Source: an uncultured Chthonomonas sp.
GTDB lineage: Bacteria > Armatimonadota > Chthonomonadetes > Chthonomonadales > CAJBBX01
Direction of reading: 5' to 3'
Assembly (NCBI GenBank): GCA_903951425.1
Contig: CAJBBX010000149.1
Coordinates: 1 to 64,000, forward strand
Length of the DNA: 64,000 nt
The notes under the pieces are model-generated. The model did no database searches and was not told where the DNA came from. It saw only the letters and a list, made by a program, of their open reading frames with translations. This document shows positions 1-19,752 of the stretch, in pieces. The position numbers and the translations under genes are program-made. Each line of letters opens with the position of its first letter. The stretch's first letter is position 1.

Positions 1-3000
1 AGCCTGCGCAGGTAGGCGCGGATGTAGGCCGCGGTTCCCTTCTTCACGGACCGGCTGGCCAACCAAAGGTACGACACGCCCTTGGAGATGACCAGGGATG
101 GCGACGCCGAGGAGGGGTTGTAGCCGGCATCGCCCGCCCAGGCCACGGTGTAGGCGTGGGCGCCGGGTGCGAGCGAGTCGGGGACGGTCCAGGTGATGAG
201 CGCCCGGCCCGAGCTGTTGGTAGTGGCGGAACCGATGGTGGTGCTGTCCACCGAGAAGGTCACGATCTTGCCGACGACCGGAGCAGAGCCCGGCGTGCGG
301 TAGAGGTAGCCCTTCATGACGATGGGCTCGAGGAGCTCGCCGCTTCGGTCCGGGGCGGAGAGGGTGGTGTTGTAGGTGATCACCACCAGTTTGCCGGTTC
401 CGGTGCATGGACCGTAGGTGCCGTCGCCGGCGAAGTCGACCCGAATCACTCGTGTGGCCGGGCCCGCATCGATCACCCAGTTCAGCGTGGCGCCGCCGGC
501 CGTCTCGGTCTTGGTCGTGCCGATAGAGGTCCCATCGATGAAGAAGCTCAGTGTGTAGCCAACAAGCGGGAACGAGTCGCTCTTGCGGTAGAGATAGGCC
601 TTCAGGGGAACAGCGGTGCCGCCAACCCAGGTCCGGTCGACCACGTAGAGCTTCGTGGCCACAGTCACCGTCAGCGTGCCGCTACCGGACGAGGAGTTGT
701 AGTTCGCATCACCCGCGAAGGATGCGCCGATCGTATGCGCCCCCGAGGTCATGGCGGCCGGTATGGCGTAGGGCCTCTTGGCGACGCCGTCCGCACCGGT
801 TGCCGCAGACCCGGCGCTTGTGCCATCGACGGTGAAGGCGATGGACTTCGCGGCCAGTGCCGCGCCGTCGGTGGTCCTCGTAAGCGTGGCGGTCAGGTTC
901 ACCGTCTGCTCGGTGGCCCCCGAAAGAGACGCCACCGCGAGTGCCGTGTCCGACTTGCTGACCGTGAGCGTCCCGCTGCCGGAGCCATCGTTGTAGTTGG
1001 CGTCAGCAGCAAAGGTGACTACGATGGGCTTCGAGCCGACCAGACCTTCCGCGATCTTGTAGTCGATGGAGGCGATCCCGCTTGCGTTCGTCGTCGGGTC
1101 CGGACTCAACGCCGTGCCCGCCACCGTGAAATGGAGAGCCTTGCCCGACAACGGCGTGTTGTCGCTCTTGCGAGTGAGGGTCGCGGTCAGCGCGACCGTC
1201 TGGCCCACTGCGCCGGCTTGGTTCGGAACCACGATCACCACATCCGACTTGCTGACCGTAAGCGTCCCGCTACCGGACCCATTGTTGTAGTTGGCGTCAG
1301 CCGTGAAGGTGACCACGATGGGCTGCGAGCCCACTAGGCCTTCCGCGATCTTGTAGTCGATGGAGGCGACCCCGGAGGCGTTCGTCGTCGGGTCCGGGCT
1401 CAACGCCGTGCCCGTCACCGTGAAGTGAAGCGCCTTGCCCGACAACGGCGTGTTGTCGGTGGTCCGCTTGAGCGTGGCCGTGAGCATGACCGTCTGCCCG
1501 ACCACCCCGGACTGGTTCGGAACCGTGATCGCTGTGTCTGCCTTGATGACCGATAGCGTGCCGCTGCCGGATGATCCGTAATAGCCCGCGTCCTCGGTGA
1601 AGCCGACGGCGACGGACTGCGAGCCGGCCAGACCTTCCGCGATCTTGTAGTCGATCGACGCCACGCCGGCGGCGTTCGTGGTCGGGTCAGGGCTCAGCGG
1701 CGTGCCGGCCACGACGAAGTGAAGCGCCTTGCCCGACAGCGGGGCCCCGTCACTGGACTTGGTGAGCGTGGCAGTTAGTGTGATGGTCTGGCCTACGGCG
1801 CCCGTCCTGTTCGGCACGGTGATCACCGTAGCGGCCTTGCCCGTGCCGCCGGTCACCGTGAACGGTAGCGCGTTGCTCGTCTGCTCCCCCATGATCGGGC
1901 AGACCACCGTGATGGAGTAGGTGCCAGCTGTGGTAAGGTTGCCGGCAGGGATAACAGCGGTCAGTTGCGTCGGTGAGATGTAGGTCGTTGCCAGCGCCGC
2001 GCCATTCCACCGGGCCTCGCAGTCCGAGTTGAACCCCGTCCCGGTCAGCGTTATGGTGGTCGCGGCGCTGCCTGCGGGCGCCGACTCCGGGCTGGCCGAC
2101 ATGAGCGCCGGTGGACCGAACACCACGATATCATCAACGAACCAGCCGGTGCCGCCCTGGGATCCTCCAAGGTGATGCAGGGCCAGGCGGACACGCTTGC
2201 CGGCATACGCAGTCAGGCTTACTACAGGAAACGATGTTCCTATGTATTTCCATCCAGTTGACGTTCCAGAATAATATGAAGTCGATACATTGTTCCACTC
2301 ACTCCACGTCATCGATGTGAAGTTCCATTCAGATACCTCTATGAGACCGTAACCATCTGTACTCCATGTATCAAAATCGAACCACGTCCAGAGGACGACT
2401 CCGATGGATGCGTTGGGATCGGAGATCACAGGCAATGTCACCGGAGCGGAGACCAACCGGCTATCCTGAAAGCCCGGATACGGCGCCGACAACCCGCTGC
2501 CCGCGCACCGGCTTCCCTGGTGAGCCGCGCGGGGCCCCAGGACTGTGCCGCCGATATCCCACACCCCGGAGTCCGCGGACCACCCGCGCCAGTCGGTCGA
2601 GGTGGTATCCTCAAAGCCGATCCACTGGTTGTAGTCCATGTCCGGCACTGCTCTGACGCCTACCTCATCGATGAACCAGCCCACGCCCCCTTGGGAGCCG
2701 CCATAGTGCTTGAACGCAATCTGAATACGCTGTCCAGCATAATCTGTAATGTCAACGCTGCAGTAGCTCCAAATACTAGTGCGTGAAACCTCCCTCGATG
2801 CCCCCACCCAAGCAGACCAGGACGTACCGTTCCAGGAGCGCACCTCGACTGTTCCATAGCCTCTGGTGCTCCACGTGTCGTAGCTGAACCACTGCCAGAA
2901 GCCGAGCTGAAGGCTCTGGCCTGCCGGCACCGACGGCAGCGTGACGGCAGGGCTGATAAGTCGACTCTGCCTCGATGCCGGGTACGCCGCGGTTAGCCCG

Positions 3001-3230
3001 CTACTCGCGCACTGGCTCCCCTGGCGAGCGCCGCCGGGCCCCCTGGTGGTGCTCCCCACGTCCCATACGCCGTTGTCGGCGGTCCAGCCGCGCCAGTTGG
3101 TGGCCGAGAAGTTCTCAAAGTCCCAGTATTGGAGTGTGGTCTGTGCTCGCGCTGGGACCTGGCTCAGGCAGGCCAGAAGCGCCAGTACAGCGAAGTGGAT
3201 CCCTACGGCGTGACGTAAGCTGCGTTGCAT
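1..3230 (-). CDS. Giant secreted surface protein with Ig-like repeats, 3' end outside window
   Basis: The reading frame is open from the ATG at 3230 to the left edge (about 1076 codons), so the C-terminus is missing. GGGGAG lies 6 nt before the ATG. Residues 1-30 form a signal peptide (hydrophobic core, then PARAQ). Two similar domains of about 165 residues follow (about 31-195 and 197-365), each with a W-R-GW start and a GGSQGG-GWF(I/V)D end, like secreted MAM/jelly-roll adhesion domains. An IPT/TIG-like domain is at about 372-455. From about 464 come tandem Ig-like (Big-type) units, three of them exactly 98 residues. The design is that of an adhesin or extracellular filament protein; the ligand is unknown. 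A 28-bp ECF-type promoter element lies 94 nt upstream of the start. Confidence 0.85.
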   Translation of the reverse strand, partial: MQRSLRHAVGIHFAVLALLACLSQVPARAQTTLQYWDFENFSATNWRGWTADNGVWDVGSTTRGPGGARQGSQCASSGLTAAYPASRQSRLISPAVTLPSVPAGQSLQLGFWQWFSYDTWSTRGYGTVEVRSWNGTSWSAWVGASREVSRTSIWSYCSVDITDYAGQRIQIAFKHYGGSQGGVGWFIDEVGVRAVPDMDYNQWIGFEDTTSTDWRGWSADSGVWDIGGTVLGPRAAHQGSRCAGSGLSAPYPGFQDSRLVSAPVTLPVISDPNASIGVVLWTWFDFDTWSTDGYGLIEVSEWNFTSMTWSEWNNVSTSYYSGTSTGWKYIGTSFPVVSLTAYAGKRVRLALHHLGGSQGGTGWFVDDIVVFGPPALMSASPESAPAGSAATTITLTGTGFNSDCEARWNGAALATTYISPTQLTAVIPAGNLTTAGTYSITVVCPIMGEQTSNALPFTVTGGTGKAATVITVPNRTGAVGQTITLTATLTKSSDGAPLSGKALHFVVAGTPLSPDPTTNAAGVASIDYKIAEGLAGSQSVAVGFTEDAGYYGSSGSGTLSVIKADTAITVPNQSGVVGQTVMLTATLKRTTDNTPLSGKALHFTVTGTALSPDPTTNASGVASIDYKIAEGLVGSQPIVVTFTADANYNNGSGSGTLTVSKSDVVIVVPNQAGAVGQTVALTATLTRKSDNTPLSGKALHFTVAGTALSPDPTTNASGIASIDYKIAEGLVGSKPIVVTFAADANYNDGSGSGTLTVSKSDTALAVASLSGATEQTVNLTATLTRTTDGAALAAKSIAFTVDGTSAGSAATGADGVAKRPYAIPAAMTSGAHTIGASFAGDANYNSSSGSGTLTVTVATKLYVVDRTWVGGTAVPLKAYLYRKSDSFPLVGYTLSFFIDGTSIGTTKTETAGGATLNWVIDAGPATRVIRVDFAGDGTYGPCTGTGKLVVITYNTTLSAPDRSGELLEPIVMKGYLYRTPGSAPVVGKIVTFSVDSTTIGSATTNSSGRALITWTVPDSLAPGAHAYTVAWAGDAGYNPSSASPSLVISKGVSYLWLASRSVKKGTAAYIRAYLRR
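958..1839 (-). repeat. Three tandem 294-bp Ig-domain coding repeats
   Basis: Three consecutive 294-bp units (boundaries near 958, 1252, 1546 and 1839) encode 98-residue Ig-like domains of the surface protein. Long stretches are nearly identical at DNA level, for example the parts encoding SGKALHF, LSPDPTTNA and DYKIAEGL. More diverged units of the same fold continue toward position 1. Such DNA identity allows unit number to change by recombination. Confidence 0.85.
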
Positions 3231-3323
3231 GTATCTCCCCCCAAGAGTCCCGACGTACCAGCGTCGCCCGGTCCGTGACACCGCCGGCATCGCTCGGTGT
3301 CGGGGAGCGGGCTCACAGTAGGC

Positions 3324-3351
3324 ATAGATGCCTATTGCGGCCCGACCTAGC
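3324..3351 (-). promoter_or_regulatory. Predicted ECF sigma promoter, copy 1
   Basis: Read on the minus strand, this 28-bp element begins GCTAGGTC and ends TCTAT. Elements of exactly the same length and with the same ends occur at 7477-7504 and 12268-12295, each before a minus-strand gene. The fixed spacing suits a -35/-10 pair recognised by an alternative sigma factor. Here the -10 half ends 94 nt before the ATG of the giant surface protein. The assignment to the sigma factor at 12332-13390 is inferred. Confidence 0.55.
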
Positions 3352-3397
3352 CATCCTGCGGACAAACCGGCTACGATCGTGCACGACCTCGTCCAAC

Positions 3398-3442
3398 GTT
3401 GTGCGGGCCGCCGCCGCGCCACGCAACGGCGGCCCGCACAAC
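3398..3442. terminator. Perfect 16-bp inverted repeat, likely terminator
   Basis: Arms at 3398-3413 and 3427-3442 are perfectly complementary (GTTGTGCGGGCCGCCG) around a 13-nt loop. The hairpin lies 28 bp past the stop of the lipoprotein gene and upstream of the surface-protein promoter element. No T-run follows on either strand, so it may act as a pausing or Rho-assisted terminator or an mRNA-stabilising hairpin. Confidence 0.6.
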
Positions 3443-3469
3443 CCGATGGCCTGCGATGCCCAGCGGCCG

Positions 3470-4330
3470 CTATCGCTTGCCGCCGGCTCCGATTGCCAGA
3501 CCCACCGCGTGTGGCCCGGCGACCGATCCTGTCGCGGTAGCGGCGGCGGCGCGGCTCGGCGCGCCGGACTGAACCCGATCGAGGGTTGCGGTATCGGTGC
3601 CGACCATAGCAAACGGATAGCCGTTATAGGTACCGGCGGCCTCACCGTGCCCGACCGACGTGAAGTGGTTCTGGTCGGTGATGTCGACCACGAACGTGAT
3701 GTTGTTCTTCGTGTAGCGGACGCCGTCCGCGGCCATTCCGAAGGGGCCTGACATCGTCAGAGTGTTGCCGGAGATGGAGCCCGTCCGCGCAACGTTCGTG
3801 CCCGGAACCGTGTACCGTATGTTGGCGCCGTCCTGCTGGAGGGCGATCCTCCCGGCCCCGGAGTTTGTTTGGGTCTGGCTCTGACCATCGATCGTGATCG
3901 TCAGCGTGAGCTCTTCGGCAACGTCATACGTGCCGGCGATGTTGATGTACTGGCTGCGCGACAGGCTGGCCGTGGCGGTCAGAGGGCCATGCGCATCCGT
4001 GCCGGTGAGTGAGAGCGTGGCCGCGTTGGTGGCCAGGGTCAGCGTGCCGTTGTAGCGCTCGCCCGGGGCCGTCACGCTGAGCGACGACCTTGTGCCGCCC
4101 ACCGTAAGGACCACTCCATCGGTCTTGCGGAAGATGGTGCCGCTGACCGGATCCTGCGACGAGGTCAGTACCAAGTCGATGGGCGCCGTCGAGTTCGATC
4201 CGCCCTGGCTAATGCTGAGCCCGCCGGAGTACACGGCGTTCTTCGTCTGTATCTCGCCGCCTCCACCCCCGCCGCATCCGGCAGCAGCGAGGACACCGAG
4301 GACCGCCGATAGAATCAGTACGCGCTTCAT
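3470..4330 (-). CDS. Predicted secreted lipoprotein, unknown function
   Basis: The 286-residue protein starts with a lipoprotein signal peptide: MKRVLILS, a hydrophobic stretch and a lipobox LAAAGC with Cys19, followed by a Gly run. GGAG lies 8-9 nt before the ATG. The mature part is rich in Thr, Ser and Gly with regular short beta-strand patterns (for example NGTLTLATNAATLSLTG), which suggests a beta-sandwich or beta-barrel-like fold. No catalytic motif was recognised. It is downstream of three VAILPV(V/A)N proteins on the same strand, but a 322-bp gap with a strong hairpin separates it from them. Confidence 0.8.
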   Translation of the reverse strand: MKRVLILSAVLGVLAAAGCGGGGGGEIQTKNAVYSGGLSISQGGSNSTAPIDLVLTSSQDPVSGTIFRKTDGVVLTVGGTRSSLSVTAPGERYNGTLTLATNAATLSLTGTDAHGPLTATASLSRSQYINIAGTYDVAEELTLTITIDGQSQTQTNSGAGRIALQQDGANIRYTVPGTNVARTGSISGNTLTMSGPFGMAADGVRYTKNNITFVVDITDQNHFTSVGHGEAAGTYNGYPFAMVGTDTATLDRVQSGAPSRAAAATATGSVAGPHAVGLAIGAGGKR

Positions 4331-4652
4331 GGCTCGTCGCTCCTTTCAAGAGCATGTACCGTGTCGTTACAGCCGGCATCCATCCGCCCAGGGTCGCCAC
4401 GCCCTCGAGCCGCCCGCGTGATGCACCAGGGGCTCCCGCCGTCCTCGGCGTTCGGCCCCGTAGACACGCATTGACCGGGCCGAACCGGTGAATGCCGGCA
4501 CACGCCCGTTGCGCGGGCGGGCAACGAGCGGATGGCTCTGCCGGTTCACCTTTTGGGCCCACCTTACACGTCTCAGCGCCGCACGACCAGCCATGGGCTG
4601 CGGGCGGCGCGCCCGCAGCCCGATCACACGCCGAGCTAGGGCCTCGGCAGAG
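4331..4652. other. 322-bp gene-free stretch
   Basis: No convincing gene is present. The stretch holds the leader of the lipoprotein gene on one side and a perfect GC hairpin at 4595-4621 on the other. Short open frames on both strands have no start signals and low-complexity Arg/Pro-rich translations. Confidence 0.6.
4595..4621 (-). terminator. Perfect 12-bp GC hairpin, likely terminator
   Basis: Arms at 4595-4606 and 4610-4621 (GGGCTGCGGGCG) are perfectly complementary around a 3-nt loop, 31 bp downstream of the stop of the gene at 4653-5240. There is no T-run, so intrinsic termination is uncertain, but position and stability fit an end-of-operon signal. Confidence 0.5.
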
Positions 4653-5240
4653 CTACTTCACGATCTTGTAGGGCTTCATGAAGTCCTTCAGGGCTCTGTC
4701 CACCGCCAGCGGCAGGGCGCGCTTCATTTTGGGCATATTGAATGCCGTTTGAGCCCTAGATAGTCCTTCGAAGACTTTAGCGCTTAAGTACGGCTGATTC
4801 GTCTTGGCATCGAGCAGCCAGACCTTGATGGACGCCACCATGCCCTGGATGTCCTTGCCCTTGTCCATGATCACGACGAAGACCACCAGGTCCGCTCCGG
4901 CTTCGCGGCCAATCTCGATCATCCTGGCGCGTTTCCGCTGCTCCTCATCCGACATGTCGGCTTCGAGCTTGGTCATGGCAGCGGCGACGACCTGCGGCTC
5001 GACGATCTGGAAGCCGCGGTCACGGAACTGGCGCTGCAAGGCATCCGTCACGTACTGGCACTGCTCCAGGGCGGTCTTCTCGCGCTTCTCTCCGCTCTCG
5101 TTCACCACGGGCAGGATCGCGACCCTGGTCGACGACGGCGTGAGAAGACCACCACTCACCTGCGCCGCACCGACTGACGGGCCCTGAAGCGCCGGCCAGA
5201 GCAGTACGGAGAGAAACGACATGAACGCTAACGGTCCCAT
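4653..5240 (-). CDS. Secreted CsgG/TolB-N-like protein, paralogue 1
   Basis: This is one of three neighbouring paralogues. The chosen start (5240) has AGGAG 7 nt upstream and gives 195 residues beginning MGPLAFMSFLSVLLWP, a signal peptide; the frame is open further upstream without a better start. The mature protein has the motif RVAILPVVNESGEK, then a helix and GFQIVEPQVV, and a hydrophobic strand ADLVVFVVIMDKGK. This layout resembles CsgG, LpoB and TolB-N type periplasmic domains, which take part in envelope assembly or lipoprotein interactions. The actual role is unknown. It probably forms an operon with the genes at 5294-5932 and 6071-6694. Confidence 0.75.
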   Translation of the reverse strand: MGPLAFMSFLSVLLWPALQGPSVGAAQVSGGLLTPSSTRVAILPVVNESGEKREKTALEQCQYVTDALQRQFRDRGFQIVEPQVVAAAMTKLEADMSDEEQRKRARMIEIGREAGADLVVFVVIMDKGKDIQGMVASIKVWLLDAKTNQPYLSAKVFEGLSRAQTAFNMPKMKRALPLAVDRALKDFMKPYKIVK

Positions 5241-5293
5241 TGGGCTCTCCTTTCGGCCCGCCATACCGCTCCATCCGGCAGTCCGGCTGCGGG

Positions 5294-5932
5294 TCACTTG
5301 TCGGCGTCCGGTCGGACGATCGGGTACTGCTTGAGTACACGCTCGAACACACGTATGACGGCGGTGCTGCAGTTCTTCTCGGCCTTGGTGGTCTGGCGGT
5401 TGGCCCCAAGGGCGAGATCCGTCGAGTCGGCGGTCTCTACCTTGGCGCTCATGATGGGGCGGCCCGACTTCACATCCAGCAGCCAGGACTTGGTCTTGAC
5501 GGCCGCCCGGGTGGCGGAGACCCAGCCGTTAGAGTCGCTGTCCGTGTTGACGTCCATGATCACGACGAACGCGACAAGGTCGGCGCCGACCTCCTGACCG
5601 ACCTGCAGCATCACAGCCCGCTTCTGCTGCTCGATGTCGGTGAGATCGACGTGGAGCCGTGACAGCGCTTCCTCGATCGGCTTGCCGGTGATCGTCTTGA
5701 AGCCCCTTCCGGCGGTCTGCTTCAGCAGGGCGCTCATCGCCGCCTTCGCGAGATTAGCCTGGTGTCCGTCGGTCCTGGCCCCGGTAGTGTTGGCCACCGG
5801 CAGGATGGCCACCGAGGTCGCCGACGGCACGTACGTTTTGTCCGAGCCCTGACCACGCGCAATGCCATGCGCGGCAAGCGCGCAGCAGACCAGAGCGGCA
5901 ATGCCGCGCACCCCACTCAAGAGTCCACTCAT
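5294..5932 (-). CDS. Secreted CsgG/TolB-N-like protein, paralogue 2
   Basis: The start at 5932 is chosen because GGAGG lies about 10 nt upstream and a signal peptide follows directly (MSGLLSGVRGIAALVCC, cleavage near GIARGQ); 212 residues. It shares with its neighbours the motif SVAILPVANTTG, the helix before GFKTITGK, the acidic DL(T)DIEQQKRA segment and the hydrophobic strand ADLVAFVVIMD. The C-terminal part describes a beta-rich domain with the sequence KTKSWLLDVKSGRPIMSAKVE. The gap to paralogue 1 is 53 bp, which fits one transcript. Function unknown. Confidence 0.75.
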   Translation of the reverse strand: MSGLLSGVRGIAALVCCALAAHGIARGQGSDKTYVPSATSVAILPVANTTGARTDGHQANLAKAAMSALLKQTAGRGFKTITGKPIEEALSRLHVDLTDIEQQKRAVMLQVGQEVGADLVAFVVIMDVNTDSDSNGWVSATRAAVKTKSWLLDVKSGRPIMSAKVETADSTDLALGANRQTTKAEKNCSTAVIRVFERVLKQYPIVRPDADK

Positions 5933-6070
5933 GCCGATCGATCCTCCCGCACACGGGTAGGCGTACCAAACCATGTGGCTCGCCATACCGATGCTCCTAT
6001 GCCGGCCAGACTCCGCGCTGCGGTTCCCGGCCGACGCTCATACGAACGTCTGAACAGGGCGGATCACCCC

Positions 6071-6694
6071 TCAGCGACCGGACTGCTTGGACGCCGGATA
6101 CGGCTTCAGGGGCGCATCGAGGACCTCTCGAACGGCCTTCCCGCATGCAGCAAGGATATTTGCGCTGCCCTTGGTCGTAGCGACGATCTCGCCGGCCCCG
6201 GCCTTGACCTCTTTGACCGTAGTCTTGATGAACGGCGCGCTCTTCTTGACATCGTACGCAGCCAGTGTGATCCGCGCGCGGCCTTCAAATGCCACGGTAA
6301 AGAAACTTCTATTGATCTTCTGAGAGACCTTCTCGATGACTACCATGACGACGAGGTCCGCCTTGGCGTCCGCCCCAATCCGCAGGTAGGAGGCGGACGA
6401 CCTCTGCTCCTCGTCGGTTAGTTGGATGCCGGCGCCCGCGATCGCGTCGCTGACGGCCTTGTCGTCCACCACCGTGAAGCCGCGCGAGGCGAACTGCTTG
6501 TTCAGTTCATCGCTCGCTGCCCTGGCCTGCTTCTCCGCCTGTGCCCCGTCCTTCTCGCCGCTGGCGTTCACCACAGGCAGGATGGCCACCCGGGTCTCAG
6601 CCGGTACATAGTTCTGCGCCCAAGAGGCGCTGCCCAAGACGATCAGCGCCAGGAGCGCCGCCGCCGACACCGTTCTGCGGAAGATGCTCACCAT
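6071..6694 (-). CDS. Secreted CsgG/TolB-N-like protein, paralogue 3
   Basis: An ATG at 6700 lies only 2 nt after GGAGG, while the ATG at 6694 has an 8-nt spacer, so 6694 is preferred (207 residues). The signal peptide is MVSIFRRTVSAAALLALIVLGSASWAQ. The mature protein carries RVAILPVVNASGEK, GFTVVDDKAV, LTDEEQRSSA and ADLVVMVVIEK, the same order of elements as the two downstream paralogues. This is likely the first gene of the three-paralogue group. The family resemblance to CsgG/LpoB-type domains is by motif only. Confidence 0.75.
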   Translation of the reverse strand: MVSIFRRTVSAAALLALIVLGSASWAQNYVPAETRVAILPVVNASGEKDGAQAEKQARAASDELNKQFASRGFTVVDDKAVSDAIAGAGIQLTDEEQRSSASYLRIGADAKADLVVMVVIEKVSQKINRSFFTVAFEGRARITLAAYDVKKSAPFIKTTVKEVKAGAGEIVATTKGSANILAACGKAVREVLDAPLKPYPASKQSGR

Positions 6695-6844
6695 TGTCAT
6701 GCCCTCCGGGCGCCGGTTACTCGCAGGTTGGGTAACCAGAGCCCTGTGTGCGTGCCGTGCCGCTCCACCTGCGACCTACGGCAGAAGATCGGGCCGCCCG
6801 GCCCGACCGACGTGGCCGGGATCCGGGCGGTGTTGTTGCTGCCG

Positions 6845-7300
6845 CTAGAACCGCCAGCCGATCGCCAACTCGGGCAGGAACGGCACCACGCCGTCGCCGC
6901 CGAACGGGAACATTAGCCCGACGCGGCCGACGGTGTTGCCGCTGGGCCGCGACACGTAGAAGACGCCGGGCGCGAAGTAGGTGCCGGCGCCGGTTCCGAT
7001 GCGAAGGTTGGTGGCCAGACCTGCATTGTTGCCCTGCGGGTAGTACATCCCCTCGAGGATGAAGCCGAACTTGGTTTCGTTGGTGCCTGTCTCGTAGTCG
7101 GTCGTGTCCAGCATGACCGGGCCCACGCCGAGGCCTACGGAGTACTTGCCTTCCTGGCTCGGGTGGAAGTGGAGCACAGCGGGACCACCCAGCCACGCGG
7201 TCACCTTCTTGCCGTTGGTGATCTCCGACTCGGCCCTCGCCGTCCCAAGCCCGAAGACACATCCAGCCATCGCGAGCACGACTGCCAGCTTACGGACCAT
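6845..7300 (-). CDS. Small outer-membrane-like beta-barrel protein
   Basis: The start at 7300 has AGGAGGGA 7 nt upstream and opens a signal peptide (MVRKLAVVLAMAGCVFGLGTARAES); an upstream in-frame ATG at 7402 lacks such a site. The 151-residue product has alternating hydrophobic strands with Gly and aromatic residues (YSVGLGVGPVML, FGFILEGMYYP, GRVGLMFPFGG) and ends in WRF. A terminal Phe after a strand is the usual insertion signal of outer-membrane barrels, which supports a diderm host. A predicted ECF promoter lies 177 nt upstream. Confidence 0.75.
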   Translation of the reverse strand: MVRKLAVVLAMAGCVFGLGTARAESEITNGKKVTAWLGGPAVLHFHPSQEGKYSVGLGVGPVMLDTTDYETGTNETKFGFILEGMYYPQGNNAGLATNLRIGTGAGTYFAPGVFYVSRPSGNTVGRVGLMFPFGGDGVVPFLPELAIGWRF

Positions 7301-7476
7301 CTGTAGTTCCCTCCTTAAGTCACTACTGAGTGTCATACACTGTCTCTGATCCGGATACGCACTAGCGCTGCGACCGATCTGATCGGCTATCAAGCCAACC
7401 ATCCGGTATACTCGCCGGATGTGTACAAGCAGCGCGCCTTCGGTTTCATGTCACCAGTGCGGGTCCGTTACCTGGG

Positions 7477-7504
7477 ATAGATGCCGACTGCGGTCGGACC
7501 TAGC
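7477..7504 (-). promoter_or_regulatory. Predicted ECF sigma promoter, copy 2
   Basis: The same 28-bp element as at 3324-3351 (GCTAGGTC ... GGCATCTAT), differing from it at only a few inner positions. It lies in the divergent region between the small outer-membrane-like gene (177 nt downstream on the minus strand) and the TPR-CHAT gene on the plus strand. Orientation matches the minus-strand gene, but a shared control region is possible. Confidence 0.55.
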
Positions 7505-7605
7505 CGTCATCCGTGAAAAAGCCGAGAAACAGCTCGGCGCCGCCGGTGGAAGGCCTCCGCGGGGCTCGCGCCCCGCGCCGCCGAGCCGGGCAGTCGCTGA
7601 GCGCC

Positions 7606-7635
7606 TTGACGACCACGGTGGGCGAAAAGTACGGT
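7606..7635 (+). promoter_or_regulatory. Possible sigma-70-type promoter of TPR-CHAT gene
   Basis: TTGACG at 7606-7611 and TACGGT at 7630-7635 are separated by 18 bp and lie 54 nt before the TPR-CHAT start. The -10 match is weak, so this is only a candidate. Confidence 0.3.
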
Positions 7636-7688
7636 TTAGGTGAACGGAAGCATCTGTCTCTGAAGCTGATATATATGGGAGGCATGGA

Positions 7689-10600
7689 ATGGGTGGGATC
7701 GCCGTATTCCTCGCGTTGATTGCCCTGTCGCTGCAGACCGGGCCGACGCCTGAACCGCCTGCGCCGAAGCCCGGCCCGGCCCATGCCGCGCTCTTGGATC
7801 GGGCCAGATCCGCGTCTGATGGCCGTGCTTTGGCCGAGACGCTGCTCTCGGCAACGACCGCGGCTTCGACTGCGGAGCGTGACGGTGACTGGATCGGGGC
7901 GGCGGCATGCCACAGTGCGTGCGCTCTCATCCTGGTCAAACAGAGCCGACCTCGCGACGCCTCGGCCGCGTGGACCAGGGCGGCGCTGGCATGGGAGCGG
8001 GCCGGCGACGGCCCGGCCCGAATCAGGGCGTTGGGCGAGGCCGCTCAAGTCCTGATCGCCGAAAAGCTCGAGGGGGCGCGCCCGTTGCTGGACCAGGCGC
8101 TGGCGGCGGGCAAGGCCGAAACGGCACGACCGCTGACCGCGGCCGAGGCCCTCTTCGCCGTCGGTGTCGCGCTATCGAACGGCCGCAAACCCGACATGGC
8201 GCCCGACTTCGCTCAAGCAGGGATGGCGGTCCGCGAGCGGCTCGGGTGCGAGCCCCCGGCGATCGCTCAGGCGCTCGAATACCTCGGTGCGTTCGAGATC
8301 CGAGCGCGGCACATGCCGGACGCAGAGAGCTGCTATAGGCGAGCGCTGGAGATATACGAGCGGCGCTCGAGAGAGTCCGCCGATGTGGCTCGAGCCCTCC
8401 ACGGCCTGGCCCAGGCAGTCAGTGGCTGGGGGCGTTACGACTATGCGGCGGCGAAGCAGTACTACGGTCGCGCCTATGCCATCCGTCAGAAGCTGGCCCC
8501 CGACTCCGTTCCGGTTGCGGACAGCGTTCGAGCCCTCGGAGACACGGCGTACAATCAGGGCGAGTACGCCGCGGCTGAGGTCCACTACGTCCGCGCCCTG
8601 GCCATCTACGGGAACCTGGCGCCCGGCTGCGAAACCATGGCCAGGTGCCTCTGCCACCACGCTATGGCAGCCTATCAGCAGAGCAAGATCGCGGAGGCCG
8701 AGTCACGCCATAGGCAGGCGCTCGCCCTGTTCACCCAGCTGGACACGAGGTCCGCTGACATGGCCCTGAACCTCCAGGGGCTTGGAGACGCGCTCTTCAG
8801 TGCCGGTGACCTTACGGAGGCCTATGCCTGCTACCGAAGGGCGCTGGAAATCCGCGAGTACCTCAGTCCCGGCTCGCTTGAGGTGGCCGAATCGCTGAAC
8901 CAGCTCGGAGGCATCTCCTGGGCCCGAGGTGACCTTCCTGCCGCGGCGCGCTCCTTCGAGCGTGCGATCGATATTCCCGGGCGACTGGGCTATCAGGTTG
9001 AGGAGGGCGAGTACCTGAGCCGGCTCGCTGTTGTGGTCAAGGCCCAAGGGCACCCAGGCACGGCTGAGACCTACCTGAAACGTGCGCTCATTCTGGTTGA
9101 GCGTTGGTTGCCTGGCTCGCTGAACGTCGCAGGTGTGTTGACCAGGCTGGGTGACCTGTACCTGAGCCGCGGCGCGCCCGTGGGCGCGGAGGCCTACTAC
9201 AGGCGTGCTCAGGCCATCCAACGCAATCTGGCGCCCGGCTCGCTGGAAGAGGCGCACACGCTGCATGGCCTCGGCGGCGCCGCGCAACGCATGGGGGACC
9301 TTGTCGCCGCCCGGACCCACTACCTGGAAGCTATGGCCATCCGCGAGAAGCTGGCACCGGGCTCGCTGGAGGCGGCGGAGAGCCTCCAGAGCCTTGCCGG
9401 ACTCGACATGGCCCAGAAGCGATGGAGCCAAGCGGCCGCGCAGCTGGAACAGGCCGCGGCCATCGTGGAGGCCCAACGCGGGCAGATTGCCAATCCCGAG
9501 GCGCGGGCCATGCTGATGGAGCGCAATGCGGGCCCATTCGACGACCTCCTGGTGGCCTATGTACGGATGGGAAGGTCGGGTAAGGCGTACGAGACGCTGG
9601 AACGGCGGCAGGCCCGTAGCCTCGTTGACGCCGTATCTGAGCGCGGACACGGTGCGACTACGGACCTTGCGCTCGGCGCGCCCCCGCAACTGGTCCAGAA
9701 GCGGCGGGGCCTCGTCCTCGAGCGCCTGGCATGCATGAAGCGGCAGAGCTCTCCGCCCGCCGCCGGGCTGAGGGCCGTGGCAGATGTCGACGCCGACCTG
9801 CGGCAGGTGGAAGACGACATCCGCCGCGCGGCGCCCGGGTTCTCGGGCCTTCGGTACCCGAAGCCGCCGACGCTGGCGCAGGCGCAGGCGGCGCTGGATC
9901 CGGGCACGCTCCTGCTGGCGTACGCGGTGCAGGAGCGCGAGACCATCCTCTTTGCCGTCACGCGTACCGTGTGTCGCGCATACCGCGTCCCGATGGGCTC
10001 TGCACGGCTGGCGAGCCGGGTTGGCGCGTTGCGAGGGGCGCTCACCACGCCCGACGCCGCCTACACCGCCGCGGCGGAGGCCGTCTTTGGCTCACTGGTG
10101 AGGCCCGCCTGGAAGGAGGCCGCCGCCGCGAGCCGACTGCTGATCAGCCCCGACGGTCCTCTGCATCTGCTGCCCTTCAGCGCGCTGGTCGCATCGCGGC
10201 GAGGGACGCGGCCCGTGCATCTGGCCGAGCTCAAGCCCATCCATACCGTGGCCTCGTTGGGGCTGTACCGCCTCGTCCGCGCCATGCGCCGGGCCCCGGC
10301 GGCGGGCAAGGTGGTGGCGCTGGCCGATCCGGCCTATGCGGCCGGGCCCGGCGTGGCATCGTCGCCGATGCAGGCGCACACCCTTGCGGCGCAGGAGGTG
10401 GGCTCGCGGGGGCTGCGGCTGAATCCGTTGCCGGCGACCCGCAAGCAAGTCGGCTCCCTGCGCGAGCTGTATGGGGACCGGGTGGTCGCCCTCGTCGGCC
10501 GCAACGCCACCATCGCCGCGCTCAAGCGCGAGTGCGTGGACGCCCGGGTGGTCCACCTCGCCTGCCACGGCCTGGCCGACAATGTAGACCCCCTCTCCTC

Positions 10601-10982
10601 GGCGCTGGCGCTCAGCCCGGGGCCGGGCGACGACGGGCTGCTCTTCGCATTCGAGGTGCTCCAGAGCGTCCGCTTGCGACGCACCGACCTGGTCATGTTG
10701 TCAGCCTGCAGCACCGGCCTGGGCAGGAATACCAGGTCCGAGGGCGTCGTCGGCCTGACACGCGCCCTGATCTACGCCGGATCGCGTACTGTCGGCACGA
10801 CCCTCTGGTCGGTCGAACTAGACAGCACCACTGCGCTGATGCAGTCGTTCTACCATGCTTGGAACTCCGGAGCCGCCAAAGACGAGGCCCTCCGCCGGGC
10901 CCAGCTCGCCGTGATGCGGCAGGATCGATGGCGGCACCCGTACTACTGGGCAGGGCTCCAACTCGTTGGTGACTGGAAGTAG
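7689..10982 (+). CDS. Secreted TPR-repeat protein with C-terminal CHAT protease domain
   Basis: GGGAGG lies 6 nt before the ATG. The 1097-residue product starts with a short signal peptide-like segment (MGGIAVFLALIALSLQ) and a Pro-rich linker, then about a dozen TPR units (about residues 70-620) with repeats such as AEAYYRRAQAIQ and LAPGSLE. A coiled segment precedes a CHAT domain (about 700-1097). The caspase-like dyad is visible: His960 in HLACHG and Cys1007 in LSACSTG. CHAT domains are caspase-fold proteases often activated through their TPRs. Here the signal-like N-terminus suggests export or membrane anchoring, unlike the usual cytosolic forms. Neighbours are the sigma/anti-sigma pair, so a signalling protease role is plausible; the substrate is unknown. 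Confidence 0.9.
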   Translation: MGGIAVFLALIALSLQTGPTPEPPAPKPGPAHAALLDRARSASDGRALAETLLSATTAASTAERDGDWIGAAACHSACALILVKQSRPRDASAAWTRAALAWERAGDGPARIRALGEAAQVLIAEKLEGARPLLDQALAAGKAETARPLTAAEALFAVGVALSNGRKPDMAPDFAQAGMAVRERLGCEPPAIAQALEYLGAFEIRARHMPDAESCYRRALEIYERRSRESADVARALHGLAQAVSGWGRYDYAAAKQYYGRAYAIRQKLAPDSVPVADSVRALGDTAYNQGEYAAAEVHYVRALAIYGNLAPGCETMARCLCHHAMAAYQQSKIAEAESRHRQALALFTQLDTRSADMALNLQGLGDALFSAGDLTEAYACYRRALEIREYLSPGSLEVAESLNQLGGISWARGDLPAAARSFERAIDIPGRLGYQVEEGEYLSRLAVVVKAQGHPGTAETYLKRALILVERWLPGSLNVAGVLTRLGDLYLSRGAPVGAEAYYRRAQAIQRNLAPGSLEEAHTLHGLGGAAQRMGDLVAARTHYLEAMAIREKLAPGSLEAAESLQSLAGLDMAQKRWSQAAAQLEQAAAIVEAQRGQIANPEARAMLMERNAGPFDDLLVAYVRMGRSGKAYETLERRQARSLVDAVSERGHGATTDLALGAPPQLVQKRRGLVLERLACMKRQSSPPAAGLRAVADVDADLRQVEDDIRRAAPGFSGLRYPKPPTLAQAQAALDPGTLLLAYAVQERETILFAVTRTVCRAYRVPMGSARLASRVGALRGALTTPDAAYTAAAEAVFGSLVRPAWKEAAAASRLLISPDGPLHLLPFSALVASRRGTRPVHLAELKPIHTVASLGLYRLVRAMRRAPAAGKVVALADPAYAAGPGVASSPMQAHTLAAQEVGSRGLRLNPLPATRKQVGSLRELYGDRVVALVGRNATIAALKRECVDARVVHLACHGLADNVDPLSSALALSPGPGDDGLLFAFEVLQSVRLRRTDLVMLSACSTGLGRNTRSEGVVGLTRALIYAGSRTVGTTLWSVELDSTTALMQSFYHAWNSGAAKDEALRRAQLAVMRQDRWRHPYYWAGLQLVGDWK

Positions 10983-10990
10983 GGGGGAGA

Positions 10991-12238
10991 TCAGGGGCGA
11001 GGGGCTCGGCGCGACCGCGCGACGGCTAGCTCGGATTCCGCCAAGCCGGCCAGCATCTTCCGAGGCAGCCGAGAGGATGGGTTGGCCCGCTTCAGCCGCT
11101 CGAGTCGCTCCCGGGCCTCGTCGAGCAGACCCGCCTCGGCGTATAGCACGGCCATGGCGAGCGTCGAGCCGGCGTTCGCGTCGAGCTTTGCCGCAGTCGG
11201 CGCGTCGAGCACGCGGAACCTGGCAGGCGGGTAGCCCTCAGCCCACGACCTACCGATGACCCTTGAGCCGGCGAAGGCCGTCACCTGCCACGAGTAGACG
11301 TGGCCCCGTACCAGTGGCGATGCGACCCGACGTCGGTCGGACGGACCCACGCTGCAGGCCGGCAACTCGGTTCCAGTGGTCTGGTCGGTCAGCTGAATCT
11401 CATGCCGCGTGGCCCCGGCCGGCCGCCGCCACTGGAGGGTCGGGGTTGCTGACGCCGTGATGCAGGCCACAGGCGCCGTCAGCCGGATCACGGGGGGCGC
11501 CGAGTGTTCGGGCCCCAGCGTCACAGGAGCCGATGAGCCAAGCTGAGCAAGGGCGCTCAGGGCGGCACTGGACGGGGTAAGGTGGCCGGTTCGGACGGCG
11601 CGCGCGACCTCGATCGGCAGGCTCTGAACGCGCACCAAGCTCCCGTCGCCCGTTGCGGCGATCTTGCCGCCGGCGTCCTCCACCAGTACGGCGCCGTCCG
11701 CCAGGCTCCGCTCGGGACCGACGGCAGGCGCGGGGCCGCCGCGAGCCTGTGCGAGATCACGCCTCAACAGCACGGTTGCCATGTCGGCCCGGTCGGCACG
11801 AAGGCGTTCCTGCCGCCATCCAACCGCGGCCGCCAGGATCACGGCGCAACAGACCGCGAAGGTGAGCCGCGGCGGAACGCGCAGCCCCGCAAGCAGCCGG
11901 CCCGCCCGGCTCCAGACCGATCCGCTGGGGTCGGGCGCGGCAGCAGAGGTCAGCGGTTCCATCACGACGACCTCGGCCAGAGCCGCCAGGTCGCTGCGGC
12001 ATGGCTCGCAGGCGCCTGTGTGCAGGATGATCTGGCGGCGCTCGGCGGCATCGGCCTCGCCGTCCACGAACGAGGCCATCCGCTCATAGCTCAGGTGGTC
12101 TGTTCCGACCGGGTCCAAGAAGATCGCCCGCTCGAGCGCGTCCAGCCCGCCGCCTGCCGATAGGCGTTGTTCGCGGTACTGCCTAAGTTCTGTCTCAGTC
12201 GCATGCTCGGGCACATCGCGCTCCAGAGCGGGCTTCAT
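10991..12238 (-). CDS. Transmembrane zinc-finger anti-sigma factor with large outer part
   Basis: The 415-residue product is taken from the ATG at 12238, which has GAGGCGGG just upstream; an in-frame ATG at 12259 is only 8 nt from the predicted -10 box and would need leaderless translation. The N-terminal part has the anti-sigma zinc motif H-x3-C-x2-C (HTGACEPC). One membrane segment follows (LTFAVCCAVILAAAVGW). The outer part has a FecR-like stretch (DGAVLVEDAGGKI), an Fn3-like domain (ATPTLQWRRPAGATRHEIQL) and a C-terminal TPR-like helical pair. It should hold the sigma factor encoded just upstream inactive until an envelope signal is sensed. It converges with the TPR-CHAT gene (8-bp gap). 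Confidence 0.85.
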   Translation of the reverse strand: MKPALERDVPEHATETELRQYREQRLSAGGGLDALERAIFLDPVGTDHLSYERMASFVDGEADAAERRQIILHTGACEPCRSDLAALAEVVVMEPLTSAAAPDPSGSVWSRAGRLLAGLRVPPRLTFAVCCAVILAAAVGWRQERLRADRADMATVLLRRDLAQARGGPAPAVGPERSLADGAVLVEDAGGKIAATGDGSLVRVQSLPIEVARAVRTGHLTPSSAALSALAQLGSSAPVTLGPEHSAPPVIRLTAPVACITASATPTLQWRRPAGATRHEIQLTDQTTGTELPACSVGPSDRRRVASPLVRGHVYSWQVTAFAGSRVIGRSWAEGYPPARFRVLDAPTAAKLDANAGSTLAMAVLYAEAGLLDEARERLERLKRANPSSRLPRKMLAGLAESELAVARSRRAPRP

Positions 12239-12267
12239 GGCCCGCCTCGTACTCCCCAATACTGGCT

Positions 12268-12295
12268 ATAGACGGCGAAACGTGGCCGACCTAGC
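12268..12295 (-). promoter_or_regulatory. Predicted ECF sigma promoter, copy 3
   Basis: The third 28-bp element (GCTAGGTC at one end, TCTAT at the other) lies between the sigma gene stop and the anti-sigma gene. This would let the sigma factor raise expression of its own inhibitor, a common feedback layout for ECF systems. The inner sequence differs from copies 1 and 2, but end motifs and spacing are identical. Confidence 0.55.
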
Positions 12296-12331
12296 GCTCG
12301 GCGCAAACAATCTGCCAGACCTGTGACAAGC

Positions 12332-13390
12332 CTACGGCGCCTCCCCTGGCCAGTTCCTCGTCACGCGGCCCCTCAGGCGTCGGCGGGCCGAGAGGCGCAA
12401 GGTGGCGATACGCGTCTCGGACTCCCCGAGTAGCTCCGCGATTCGGGCGTCCGTCCACGGCAGGCTCGCCCAGGCCGCGGCAAGCCGATCCGACGGCAGT
12501 CCCATCACCTCGGCCAGCCTCGGTTGGTTGGTGTTCCAGACCTCGGTGGCTACCGCGATCTCGGCATCCATACCCAGGAGCAGGGCGGCCGCGTGGCGAT
12601 TCGGCAACTGCTGAATCTCCTGCCAGGCGTGGCGCAGTCTCTCCCGGACCGCGACTTGCGCCGCCAGGTCAGGCGCCGGGTCGCGATGCTCCTCTATTGT
12701 GTCACGCCCGTCATCGCCGTCGACGGAGGAGGCTACGGCGATCTGCACCTCCTGTATCCCGAGCAGGCCGTAGATCGCCCGGGTCAGCGCCTTCAGTGGC
12801 ACGGGCCGCCCGATGTGGTTGAGGTACCCGAGCACTATGCCGCCGTGGTCTGGTTTCTGTGCGTCGGCCAGATGGGTGAGTCCGGCGGCCGCATCGGCGA
12901 AGATGGGCTCGCAACCAGTACAGGACGCATACGACTCGTCAGACGCGACGGCGTCGCGCCAGTCCGCAAGGCCGACCATGAAGTGGGGCGCCTTACCGCA
13001 ACCGAGGCGCCGGTCATGCTCCGCGACATAGCGAATCTGGCCTGCCAGCCTGTGGAACCGCGGGGTCCTGACACGCTGCATGGCATTGATGGAGTTTACG
13101 GCAACCTCTGCCGCGTAGGCGGCCGGGTCCCTGACGACTGTTGTCTCTGGTTTGGCCTGGGCGCGACGGAGACACTCGATCACGTTGCACAGCGCATCCA
13201 GCTCGGCGTCCTGCAGGTCCTCGGCAGTCAGGCCGGTGTGGGCCCGCCCATAGACCACGGTCCTGACGGCGGGTTCAACGATGTCATGTACCAGGGCATC
13301 GAGAGGCGCGTCATCGGGCCGGCCGGTTGGGCCCCGGCCGCCGGCATCCGTGTGGTCATCCTCTGATCGGCGGGGCACGTCGGCATCCAT
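12332..13390 (-). CDS. ECF-like sigma-70 family RNA polymerase sigma factor
   Basis: The 352-residue protein has a region-2-like N-terminal part (DLQDAELDALCNVIECLRR, then AYAAEVAVNSINAMQRVRTPRF) and a C-terminal region-4-like helix-turn-helix (WTDARIAELLGESETRIATLRLSARRRLR). The middle is longer than in ordinary ECF factors and contains a Cys/His pair region (HDRRLGCGKAPHF, then SCTGCEP), which may be a regulatory insert. It is followed by a membrane anti-sigma factor gene, the standard arrangement. The start is preceded only by a G-rich GGGGGCC, so the exact N-terminus is less sure. Confidence 0.8.
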   Translation of the reverse strand: MDADVPRRSEDDHTDAGGRGPTGRPDDAPLDALVHDIVEPAVRTVVYGRAHTGLTAEDLQDAELDALCNVIECLRRAQAKPETTVVRDPAAYAAEVAVNSINAMQRVRTPRFHRLAGQIRYVAEHDRRLGCGKAPHFMVGLADWRDAVASDESYASCTGCEPIFADAAAGLTHLADAQKPDHGGIVLGYLNHIGRPVPLKALTRAIYGLLGIQEVQIAVASSVDGDDGRDTIEEHRDPAPDLAAQVAVRERLRHAWQEIQQLPNRHAAALLLGMDAEIAVATEVWNTNQPRLAEVMGLPSDRLAAAWASLPWTDARIAELLGESETRIATLRLSARRRLRGRVTRNWPGEAP

Positions 13391-13605
13391 ATCAGGCCCC
13401 CAGGTGTGTTAGCGTCCACGGCATATTCGACAGCAGATGCCCAAACACCTGCTGAAGGTAGAGCGACCGTGCGGAGTGCAGCAAAGCAATGGCACGACTG
13501 CCGAACGAGACCAGGGGTTGCACGGCATGCGGGGCCTGCCCACGGTCCGCCTACGGGTCTACCGAGCGCCGAAAGGAAGGGCGTACCATGGGGCCGCCTG
13601 CTGCG

Positions 13606-13611
13606 TATAAT
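13606..13611 (+). promoter_or_regulatory. -10 box candidate for aldo/keto reductase gene
   Basis: A consensus TATAAT lies 54 nt before the start of the aldo/keto reductase gene. No good -35 box is seen 16-18 bp upstream. Confidence 0.35.
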
Positions 13612-13664
13612 GCCATGGCCCGGCGCTTTGGAGCGCCGCAGCCGCCATACGGGAGGAAACCAAT

Positions 13665-14618
13665 ATGCAGTATCGCCATCTGGGCACCAGCGGCCTTCGC
13701 GTCAGCGAGGTCTGCCTCGGGTCGTGGCTCACCTACGGCAACGCCACCGACGACAGCACCGCAGAGGCCATCGTCGACAAGGCCTTCGAGCTCGGCATTA
13801 ACTTCTTTGATTGCGCCAACGTCTACGCCGGCGGCGAGGCGGAGAAGGTCTGGGGACGCGTCTTCAGCAAGTTCGACCGAGACGACTACGTCATCGCCAC
13901 CAAGGTCTACTTCCCCATGGGCTCCGGCCCGAACGACCGCGGCCTGAGCCGCAAGCACATCCGGGAGCAGTGCGAGCGGAGCCTGAAGCGGCTGAACCTG
14001 GACTACGTCGACCTCTACCAGTGCCACCGCTACGACGGCGACACGCCGCTGGAAGAGACGCTGCGGGCCATGGACGACCTGGTGACCGCCGGCAAGGCGC
14101 TCTATGTCGGCTTCAGCGAGTGGCCGGCCAGCCGCATCGCCGAGGCGGTGGGGATGCAACAGCGGCTGAACCTGGATCGCTTCGTCTCCAGCCAGCCCTA
14201 CTACAACATGACGGGCCGCGGCATCGAGCGCGAGGTGATGCCCACCTGCAAGCGCGAGGGCATCGGGCAGATCGTCTTCTCGCCGCTGGCCCAGGGCGTG
14301 CTCACAGGGAAGTACCTGCCCGGACAACCCGTGCCCGCCGACAGCCGCGCCGCCGACCCCAAGCAGAACATGTTCCTGAACCAGGGCCGCCTGGATGACG
14401 CGTTGCTGGAGAAGGTGCAGCTGCTCAAGCCCATCGCCGAGCGCGAGGGCCTGAGCCTGGCGCAGCTGGCATTGGCCTGGATCCTGCGGAACGACAACGT
14501 CAGCTCCGTCATCGTCGGCGCCACCAAGCCGGATCAGCTTGCCGACAACGCCGGCGCATCGGGCAAGGTGCTGAGCCCCGAAACGTTGGCCGAGATCGAC
14601 GCCCTCTTCCCGCTGTAG
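13665..14618 (+). CDS. Aldo/keto reductase, Kv-beta/YghZ-like
   Basis: The 317-residue protein begins MQYRHLGTSGLRVSEVCLG after GGGAGGAAACCAAT, a clear start. It is a full-length NADP-dependent aldo/keto reductase of the potassium-channel beta-subunit type: catalytic DCANVYAGG (Asp and Tyr), the lysine in VIATKVYFPMG, the His in DLYQCHRYDGDTPLEETL, and the cofactor-binding SSVIVGATKPDQL near the C-terminus. It would reduce aldehydes or ketones in the cytoplasm; the natural substrate cannot be read from sequence. Confidence 0.93.
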   Translation: MQYRHLGTSGLRVSEVCLGSWLTYGNATDDSTAEAIVDKAFELGINFFDCANVYAGGEAEKVWGRVFSKFDRDDYVIATKVYFPMGSGPNDRGLSRKHIREQCERSLKRLNLDYVDLYQCHRYDGDTPLEETLRAMDDLVTAGKALYVGFSEWPASRIAEAVGMQQRLNLDRFVSSQPYYNMTGRGIEREVMPTCKREGIGQIVFSPLAQGVLTGKYLPGQPVPADSRAADPKQNMFLNQGRLDDALLEKVQLLKPIAEREGLSLAQLALAWILRNDNVSSVIVGATKPDQLADNAGASGKVLSPETLAEIDALFPL

Positions 14619-14673
14619 GCCGGTCGCCGGTTCCCCGCGCCGTTCGGTGGCTCCGGGCGGCGCTGGGCCTGCG

Positions 14674-15108
14674 TCAGTTGGCGTACAGGCGACGCAGGTC
14701 GGCAGGGGAGGCCGCCGTGGCGATGGCGTCCTTGACACGGCCAAGCGTCTCCAGGCTCTCGATGCGCCCTAGCTCCTCCATGTGCCCGAGTGCAGCCGCC
14801 TGGCCGAACTTGAGCTTCAGGCCCAGCCGAAGCGCCTCCATCAGACCCTTGCGGAGGCCCAGCGCCTCACCCTTGGCGACGCCCATCGCCTCGCCCTCTT
14901 GCCTTCCGAGCAGCCCGCCCCCTTGGCGGCCGCGCTCCATGGCCTTTGCCTCGAACCTGGTTACATACTGCATCGCCGTGTCACCCTCTTCCTCGCGGAC
15001 CTCGCTCCAGAACCGGTCGTCCAGCTCCTCCGGGAGTTCGAGGACCCAATCCATGAACGTCATCAGCGCAAATGCCTTGTCTTGTGATACGCCCAATCGG
15101 TCTTCCAC
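14674..15108 (-). pseudogene. C-terminal fragment of Rpn/PD-(D/E)XK transposase-like protein
   Basis: The 144-codon frame from a GTG at 15108 encodes MDWVLELPEELDDRFWSEV, an Ala/Glu/Gly-rich stretch (ERGRQGGGLLGRQEGEAMG) and a C-terminal helix ending LRRLYAN. This is the usual tail of Rpn-family recombination-promoting nuclease/putative transposase proteins. The N-terminal nuclease domain is absent; upstream codons in frame show no such domain and no good ribosome site. It is therefore judged a decayed remnant, though a small expressed protein cannot be excluded. Confidence 0.6.
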
Positions 15109-15242
15109 GGGCTGTCGAACCTGCGTCGGCCTGCCATCGGCGACCTCCTGGGTCGGGCCGCGCCATGGCCGGGCGGCCCATGCGAACGATGTAGCGTAGG
15201 CACGGCGATGCGGCGGCCGCAGGCGTCTGCCACAATGACCGC

Positions 15243-17851: not shown

Positions 17852-17892
17852 CTACAGACGGGATCAATACCTGAACTCACCAGTACTGCGTG

Positions 17893-17922
17893 TGGACAGA
17901 CCAGCAGACGCATGGGTATAAT
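17893..17922 (+). promoter_or_regulatory. Sigma-70-type promoter before tetR gene
   Basis: TGGACA (17893-17898) and TATAAT (17917-17922) are spaced by 18 bp. They lie about 150 nt before the TetR-family start, so the gene would have its own transcript with a long leader. Confidence 0.55.
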
Positions 17923-18075
17923 CGGGCTGTGCATGGTTGGGCCCACGCGGCCCTACGGGCTCCCGCAAGGTGAGCCCCGGCGCGACTGCCGCTCCGCGCC
18001 CACGGAACACCGATGGCCCTCGGTGAGCCCGGGCGCGGAGGACGGCGGACGCCGCGAGGCATGTTCGGAGCGCTG

Positions 18076-18690: not shown

Positions 18691-18702
18691 GGCCCGCTCC
18701 GC

Positions 18703-19425: not shown

Positions 19426-19526
19426 GGGCGGCTCCCCGGTCGGCGCATGGCTGGCGCCGAATGCACCAGACGAACCATGAAGGAGGTAGCATAGGCCATT
19501 AGGGTGTTTTTCACTCTGCATACTGG

Positions 19527-19730
19527 ATGAGGAGGTCCGCATGGGCCACGCCTATGTCAGTACGCCGAAGAACGACCGCCCGCGATCTGGGGTTCGACGA
19601 CAACGATCTGTGGATCGCTGCCATCGCGCTGGTACAGGGACTCACGGTCGTCACTTCCGATGGCGACTTCCAACGCATGTCTGCTGCGTTTGCACTGCGA
19701 ATCGATAGCTGGCTCGCCCCTCCGGCCTGA
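19527..19730 (+). pseudogene. C-terminal fragment of VapC-like PIN toxin
   Basis: The 67-codon frame contains NDLWIAAIALVQGLTVVTSDGDFQRM, the conserved C-terminal part of PIN-domain toxins with two acidic residues (in short parts: NDLWIAA and TSDGDF). The N-terminal half with the first catalytic Asp is missing and no antitoxin gene is near. It is a remnant without expected activity. Confidence 0.6.
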
Positions 19731-19752
19731 GTTTCGCGCACAGCTCCCGCCC

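Follow-up and report, generated by a model that had tools for sequence, protein, structure and literature searches.

What are the three 28-bp elements that recur at the start of a contig from an uncultured Chthonomonas sp. (CAJBBX010000149.1), and which protein reads them? The stretch analysed, 64,000 nucleotides long and called the window hereafter, had been proposed to carry an extracytoplasmic function (ECF) sigma regulon. We find that the elements are very probably promoters of the sigma factor encoded at 12332-13390, as judged from sequence comparison. This sigma would be controlled by a membrane anti-sigma and released by a CHAT protease, a third conserved partner that is absent from the original prediction. 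We put the probability of this reading as a whole at about 0.7. An exact search of the window with the pattern GCTAGGTC-N15-TCTAT returns three copies, all at the positions originally given:

3324-3351, minus strand: element 1 (GGCTAGGT ... GGCATCTA), exact match, candidate promoter of a giant surface protein
7477-7504, minus strand: element 2, exact match, candidate promoter of an exported-protein operon, divergent from the CHAT gene
12268-12295, minus strand: element 3, exact match, candidate promoter between the sigma and anti-sigma genes

The letters of the three matches are GCTAGGTCGGGCCGCAATAGGCATCTAT, GCTAGGTCCGACCGCAGTCGGCATCTAT and GCTAGGTCGGCCACGTTTCGCCGTCTAT. As had been claimed for the window, there is no fourth exact copy, and this extends to the Armatimonadota genome of 188 contigs and 6.08 Mb: scanned for both end motifs, it has exact copies only before genes of this cluster. 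Matches with two mismatches elsewhere in the genome (26) show no excess over a reversed-pattern control (72). A profile made from six copies, those of this genome and of its sister G001 from the same genus, finds three matches per genome (E-values of 1e-9 to 1e-10), followed by a gap of about 24 bits and a next match at an E-value of about 0.1. The regulon appears to be confined to one cluster in this genome. The exact dyad did not occur in shuffled windows. When the 8-base and 5-base words could be chosen freely, with a spacing anywhere from 10 to 20, sets of three copies (8+5 fixed bases, one strand, less than 10 kb) arose at least once in 49 of 100 shuffled windows, with a mean of 0.9. As such dyads are common in shuffles, independent evidence is needed; the three copies alone are weak and non-decisive, and it is the comparative evidence that decides.

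That evidence comes from the gaps between sigma and anti-sigma genes in homologous loci. Unguided motif finding in 60 loci from two phyla yielded one element of fixed spacing, gGtAATAT-N14-CGTCT (-35 block GGTAATAT), with a log-likelihood of 297 versus 111-129 in shuffles. A first de novo run had captured codons of the anti-sigma zinc finger rather than a promoter, and the search was rerun on regions cut before the anti-sigma gene. The motif was then retrained without the window, G001 having been left out from the start, and used to score 127,938 window positions. Elements 1, 2 and 3 took ranks 1, 10 and 65, element 3 being the best-scoring site of its own gap. Across 925 kb of homologous loci the motif has 48 matches versus 3-14 for column-permuted versions. 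The window's own motif gives only scattered matches there when one mismatch is allowed, because the -35 differs by lineage.

These differences follow the sigma factor. The recognition helix RQQVINLRK pairs with the -35 block GGTAATAT, RAVPSVRFK with GGCAACAT, the type xWRFxALRR with GGAATTT and ETRIATLRL with GCTAGGT. Between the sigma4 recognition helix and the -35 the Mantel correlation is 0.52, a value reached in none of 2000 permutations, and a partial correlation of 0.33 is left once overall sigma divergence is removed; the correlation between helix and -10 is 0.00. Such covariation ties the sigma to the element far more directly than proximity does. Together with the conservation of the motif at the corresponding position of homologous loci, it argues that the elements are promoters of this sigma. 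As for the frame first given to the element, its two blocks stand, with the -35 starting one base earlier and the -10 better read as CRTCTA. In G001 all three elements have an unchanged -35 amid diverged flanks, elements 1 and 3 retain both blocks, and element 3 is identical at 28 of 28 positions.

The gene on the far side of element 3, which lies between the sigma and anti-sigma genes as the original prediction implied, encodes a true sigma factor, though a very divergent one:

12332-13390, minus strand: ECF-type sigma factor, with sigma2 at about residues 28-125, an insert of about 120 residues and sigma4 at 246-348 (family profile, AlphaFold model and PDB comparison)

No Pfam sigma domain was found in this 352-residue protein. 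The sigma70-ECF model TIGR02937 is matched by 13 of 16 relatives (best 5.5e-11), and by the window protein with an E-value of 0.0065 over residues 38-341. The AlphaFold model (mean pLDDT 73.8, domain arrangement unreliable) has two helical domains with about 120 residues between them. Its sigma4 superposes on that of Escherichia coli sigmaE region 4 bound to -35 DNA (2h27_D; Z 9.0, 1.7 Å over 69 residues). Against 1or7_B the model has a Z of 9.2 and a root-mean-square deviation of 17.6 Å over both domains, because their relative placement differs. With the whole model Foldseek gave no match at E<=0.001, given the uncertain placement of the domains; sigma4 alone is clear. The protein has the sigma2 and sigma4 without sigma3 that define ECF factors, and a two-block promoter lies before its own operon and targets, although it precedes the anti-sigma gene and not the sigma gene. 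A GGAAC-type -35 is missing, the -35 being one of the four named above according to lineage; this does not exclude ECF membership, since ECF groups differ in their -35. The ECF regulon proposed at the outset is thus supported by relatives matching the ECF model, by the sigma4 model, by the motif of homologous loci and by the covariation of -35 and helix.

The insert, at about residues 126-245, is kept family-wide and contains a beta-hairpin (FALWxxxxGxxLCG in relatives) and helices. In one locus (L062:8570-10000) the sigma homologue carries a fused N-terminal FHA domain, which suggests phospho-dependent control in that lineage.

The two other conserved genes of the cluster are convergent:

10991-12238, minus strand: anti-sigma factor with a zf-HC2 motif (HxxxCxxC), one transmembrane helix, an outer FN3 domain and TPR-like helices
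7689-10982, plus strand: TPR-CHAT caspase-like protein with an N-terminal hydrophobic export signal and conserved His of LACHG and Cys of LSAC (PF12770, 1.2e-62), divergent from the exported-protein operon

A helical HxxxCxxC zinc domain encoded beside a sigma gene and a transmembrane helix place the former among class I zinc-binding anti-sigma (ZAS) factors. PF13490 (zf-HC2) is present in nine of ten anti-sigmas tested, and in intact ones the transmembrane helix is C-terminal to the zinc motif. In the predicted structure, the FN3 domain (Z about 10, 2.2 Å) is followed by the TPR-like helices. The ATG at 12238 is ATA in G001, which makes the GTG at 12214, common to both, the likelier start; it may be the true one. 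As for the CHAT protein, its PF12770 match and His/Cys dyad make it a predicted peptidase, and both residues are kept in all nine aligned CHAT proteins. Intact CHAT proteins start with a hydrophobic export-type segment. A PDB sequence search with the window protein returned TPR structures only, Csx29 not among them, though the two may still be kin.

How the promoter is wired to these genes was assessed at a threshold of at least 13 bits, on genes called in the compared loci with a simple codon-usage script. The anti-sigma gene adjoins the sigma gene in 43 tabulated loci, including the window. Sites occur in 26 of these 43 gaps, a count that is partly produced by construction, the motif having been learned and counted on the same gaps; the counts for sigma and CHAT are free of this. 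No site was found upstream of sigma (0 of 58 regions) or upstream of CHAT in the same direction (0 of 27). Six of the 27 CHAT modules have a site divergent from CHAT, which is the position of element 2. Since the promoter is found before neither sigma nor CHAT, feedback would fall on the anti-sigma. Other genomes have additional sites upstream of several large exported proteins (beta-propeller/PKD, beta-helix and SdrD-like), in line with a putative surface regulon.

The genes placed after elements 1 and 2 had been described as a giant surface protein and a small outer-membrane-like protein. Both are there, like the anti-sigma gene after element 3, but the operon of element 2 also encodes three LpoB/DUF3280-like proteins and a lipoprotein:

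1-3230, minus strand: giant surface protein, incomplete at the contig end, with Big_3_5 Ig-like domains in tandem (PF16640, 1.9e-40, six stretches)
6845-7300, minus strand: small exported outer-membrane-like protein, first gene after element 2 (open reading frame, signal peptide and ribosome-binding site)
6071-6700, minus strand: exported LpoB/DUF3280-like protein A (PF11684, 6e-7)
5294-5986, minus strand: exported paralogue B (phmmer match to the paralogues)
4653-5240, minus strand: exported paralogue C, DUF4136/LpoB-like (PF13590, 2.8e-4)
3470-4330, minus strand: putative lipoprotein with a LAAAGC lipobox, end of the operon (from sequence)

Element 1 lies about 93 nt upstream of the ATG at 3230 and element 2 about 176 nt upstream of its operon. 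The giant gene contains three tandem 294-nt repeats (934-1815) coding for Big_3_5 Ig-like domains, with identities of 84% and 72% to the first repeat. The three LpoB/DUF3280/DUF4136-like paralogues are in tandem (4653-6700), and a weak relative adjoins the module in another locus (L058, 6707-7900). Between the end of the operon and element 1, a strong GC-rich inverted repeat (GTTGTGCGGGCCGCC...GGCGGCCCGCACAAC, 3400-3440) resembles a terminator; its left arm differs in G001. No known RNA family matches the window.

Of 291 Armatimonadota genomes, 34 carry a sigma homologue; so do 27 of 119 from the order containing a Pyrinomonadaceae bacterium, an order which we take to belong to the phylum Acidobacteriota. 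The genome search was built on four closer sequences, and loci at contig ends depress the counts. The anti-sigma gene follows the sigma gene in most loci with enough sequence. In many modules CHAT is at most about 3 kb from sigma, either convergent to the anti-sigma gene, as in the window, or directly upstream of sigma. CHAT genes are rare: in a count over 18 genomes, each had between one and five. One Pyrinomonadaceae genome, G292, has four members of the sigma family (L077, L177 and L200 among its loci), and multiple modules can thus coexist in one genome.

Within the genus, the cluster of G001 is 94% identical to that of the window, with protein identities of 80% for sigma, 98.5% for CHAT and 96% for the anti-sigma. 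Between the sigma gene and its counterpart in the sister species (L053, 11316-12374), nonsynonymous (dN) and synonymous (dS) divergence are 0.12 and 0.19. For the same pair of species, the values are 0.0075 and 0.024 for CHAT, and dN is 0.017 for the anti-sigma. Sigma divergence is greatest in region 2 (residues 50-100), and the recognition helix is unchanged in G001; recombination or fast evolution may account for the divergence between the sisters. The cluster is missing from G002, of the same genus, whose DNA aligns with the window at 13544-19443 and has other genes in the place of sigma, anti-sigma and CHAT. Position 13544 or so is the edge of an accessory block, with synteny to G002 on the right and unrelated genes on the left.

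How might these parts work together? RNA polymerase with this sigma would read the three elements through the -35 GGCTAGGT and the -10 CRTCTA at fixed spacing. The anti-sigma would hold the sigma at the membrane, with its zinc domain in the cytoplasm, one transmembrane helix, and the part with FN3 and TPR-like helices outside. Either the anti-sigma or the TPR region of the exported CHAT protein, or both, might sense an extracytoplasmic signal. The CHAT domain would then cut the outer part of the anti-sigma as a site-1 step, and further proteolysis would release the sigma. Free sigma would turn on the exported-protein operon, the giant Ig-like protein and the anti-sigma itself; as its inhibitor is also induced, the response would be self-limiting, with sigma and CHAT expressed from separate promoters of their own. 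The promoter identity, the conserved wiring, the sigma/anti-sigma/CHAT trio and the protein architectures appear well supported by comparison. From there we infer transcription, the location of the proteins in the cell and the signal. Cleavage of the anti-sigma by CHAT is suggested by gene association, topology, the conserved catalytic residues and the Csx29 precedent discussed below.

Other explanations have to be weighed against this scheme, and they differ in how much of it they would leave standing. The promoters could be right and CHAT could be an output or a parallel effector acting on surface or foreign proteins, with different proteases or a bound ligand freeing the anti-sigma. We regard this as rather unlikely. 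It fits the absence of a same-direction promoter before CHAT, the convergent arrangement seen in many loci and the lack of CHAT at some sigma loci. However, CHAT adjoins sigma in two phyla even though genomes have few CHAT genes, the promoter would be expected in front of an output gene, and there is a precedent for a TPR-CHAT protease that cuts a sigma inhibitor (PMC10028731). A role as operators, bound by a repressor or an activator, is improbable for the elements: the short palindrome TAGGCA-TCTA-TGCCTA of element 1, which would suit an operator, is not in elements 2 and 3, and the family motif has the two-block spacing typical of ECF promoters, a CGTCT -10 and a -35 that tracks the sigma4 recognition helix. 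We consider it very improbable that the elements are chance repeats or functionless copies spread by duplication. The frequency of free-choice dyads in shuffles and the likeness of elements 1 and 2 beyond the two blocks would agree with such an origin, but the same sites are recovered by a motif learned from other genomes, and G001 retains all three -35 blocks within its diverged flanks.

Several observations weigh against the promoter and CHAT-release scheme, in addition to the partial circularity of the gap count. Seventeen of the 43 gaps have no site at 13 bits, and element 3 fits the family motif only moderately well. TCAGT replaces TCTAT in element 2 of G001. In other genomes, some of the sites lie upstream of ordinary genes (for a Rieske protein, an NMT1-like protein and a peptidase), and some sigma homologues have no adjoining CHAT or zf-HC2 anti-sigma gene. 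Lastly, the signal peptide of the window CHAT protein is without the usual positive charge.

The sigmaE/RseA/DegS and sigmaW/RsiW systems combine an ECF sigma, a single-pass anti-sigma and an extracytoplasmic site-1 protease, DegS being trypsin-like; both are cited in PMC10028731. The scheme proposed here has the same three components. It differs in that the candidate protease is a caspase-like CHAT protein and not DegS, the promoter precedes the anti-sigma gene only, the -35 is unusual and the sigma has an insert of about 120 residues. In the ECF54 group, CHAT-domain proteins are found in the genetic context and proteolytic control has been proposed, as here, but the group was described without an anti-sigma (PMC8999054); the present family differs, with a conserved zf-HC2 anti-sigma and an anti-sigma gene next to sigma in the 43 loci. 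Metacaspase operons with sigma-70 genes in Myxococcus likewise place a caspase-like gene beside a sigma factor; they belong to another caspase family, and the part of that account available to us describes neither anti-sigma nor promoter (PMC3501461).

The closest parallel is Craspase, the type III-E CRISPR system with CASP-sigma, Csx30 and Csx29, in which the TPR-CHAT protein Csx29 cleaves the sigma inhibitor Csx30 (PMC10028731). There, too, a TPR-CHAT protease, a sigma inhibitor and an ECF-like sigma are encoded together, and predicted sigma-dependent promoters lie within the locus itself, again with three strong matches (PMC10028731). Unlike in Craspase, the inhibitor here is a zf-HC2 membrane anti-sigma, and the CHAT protein has an export signal, which would place cleavage outside the cytoplasm. 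A type III-E setting (Cas7-11 and an array) was rejected, as none of ten proteins tested matched PADLOC Cas models and no CRISPR-like repeat array is present in window positions 1-20000; models of defence systems gave only a generic TPR match among the tested proteins.

We found no description of the sigma/anti-sigma/CHAT trio in the open-access literature searched. We tentatively propose that an exported TPR-CHAT protein acts as the site-1 protease freeing an insert-bearing ECF sigma, in an undescribed non-CRISPR system of Armatimonadota and Acidobacteriota. From a promoter tuned to the lineage, the sigma would direct expression of surface proteins and of its own inhibitor, and the cytosolic Craspase pathway would be related or convergent. 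Our findings suggest that the Craspase pathway, with its TPR-CHAT protease, sigma inhibitor and sigma, has non-CRISPR counterparts. CHAT proteases, whose substrates outside CRISPR systems are mostly unknown, gain a concrete candidate in the partner anti-sigma. As the promoter is readable from sequence, the targets of this unusual sigma family become listable in many uncultured bacteria.

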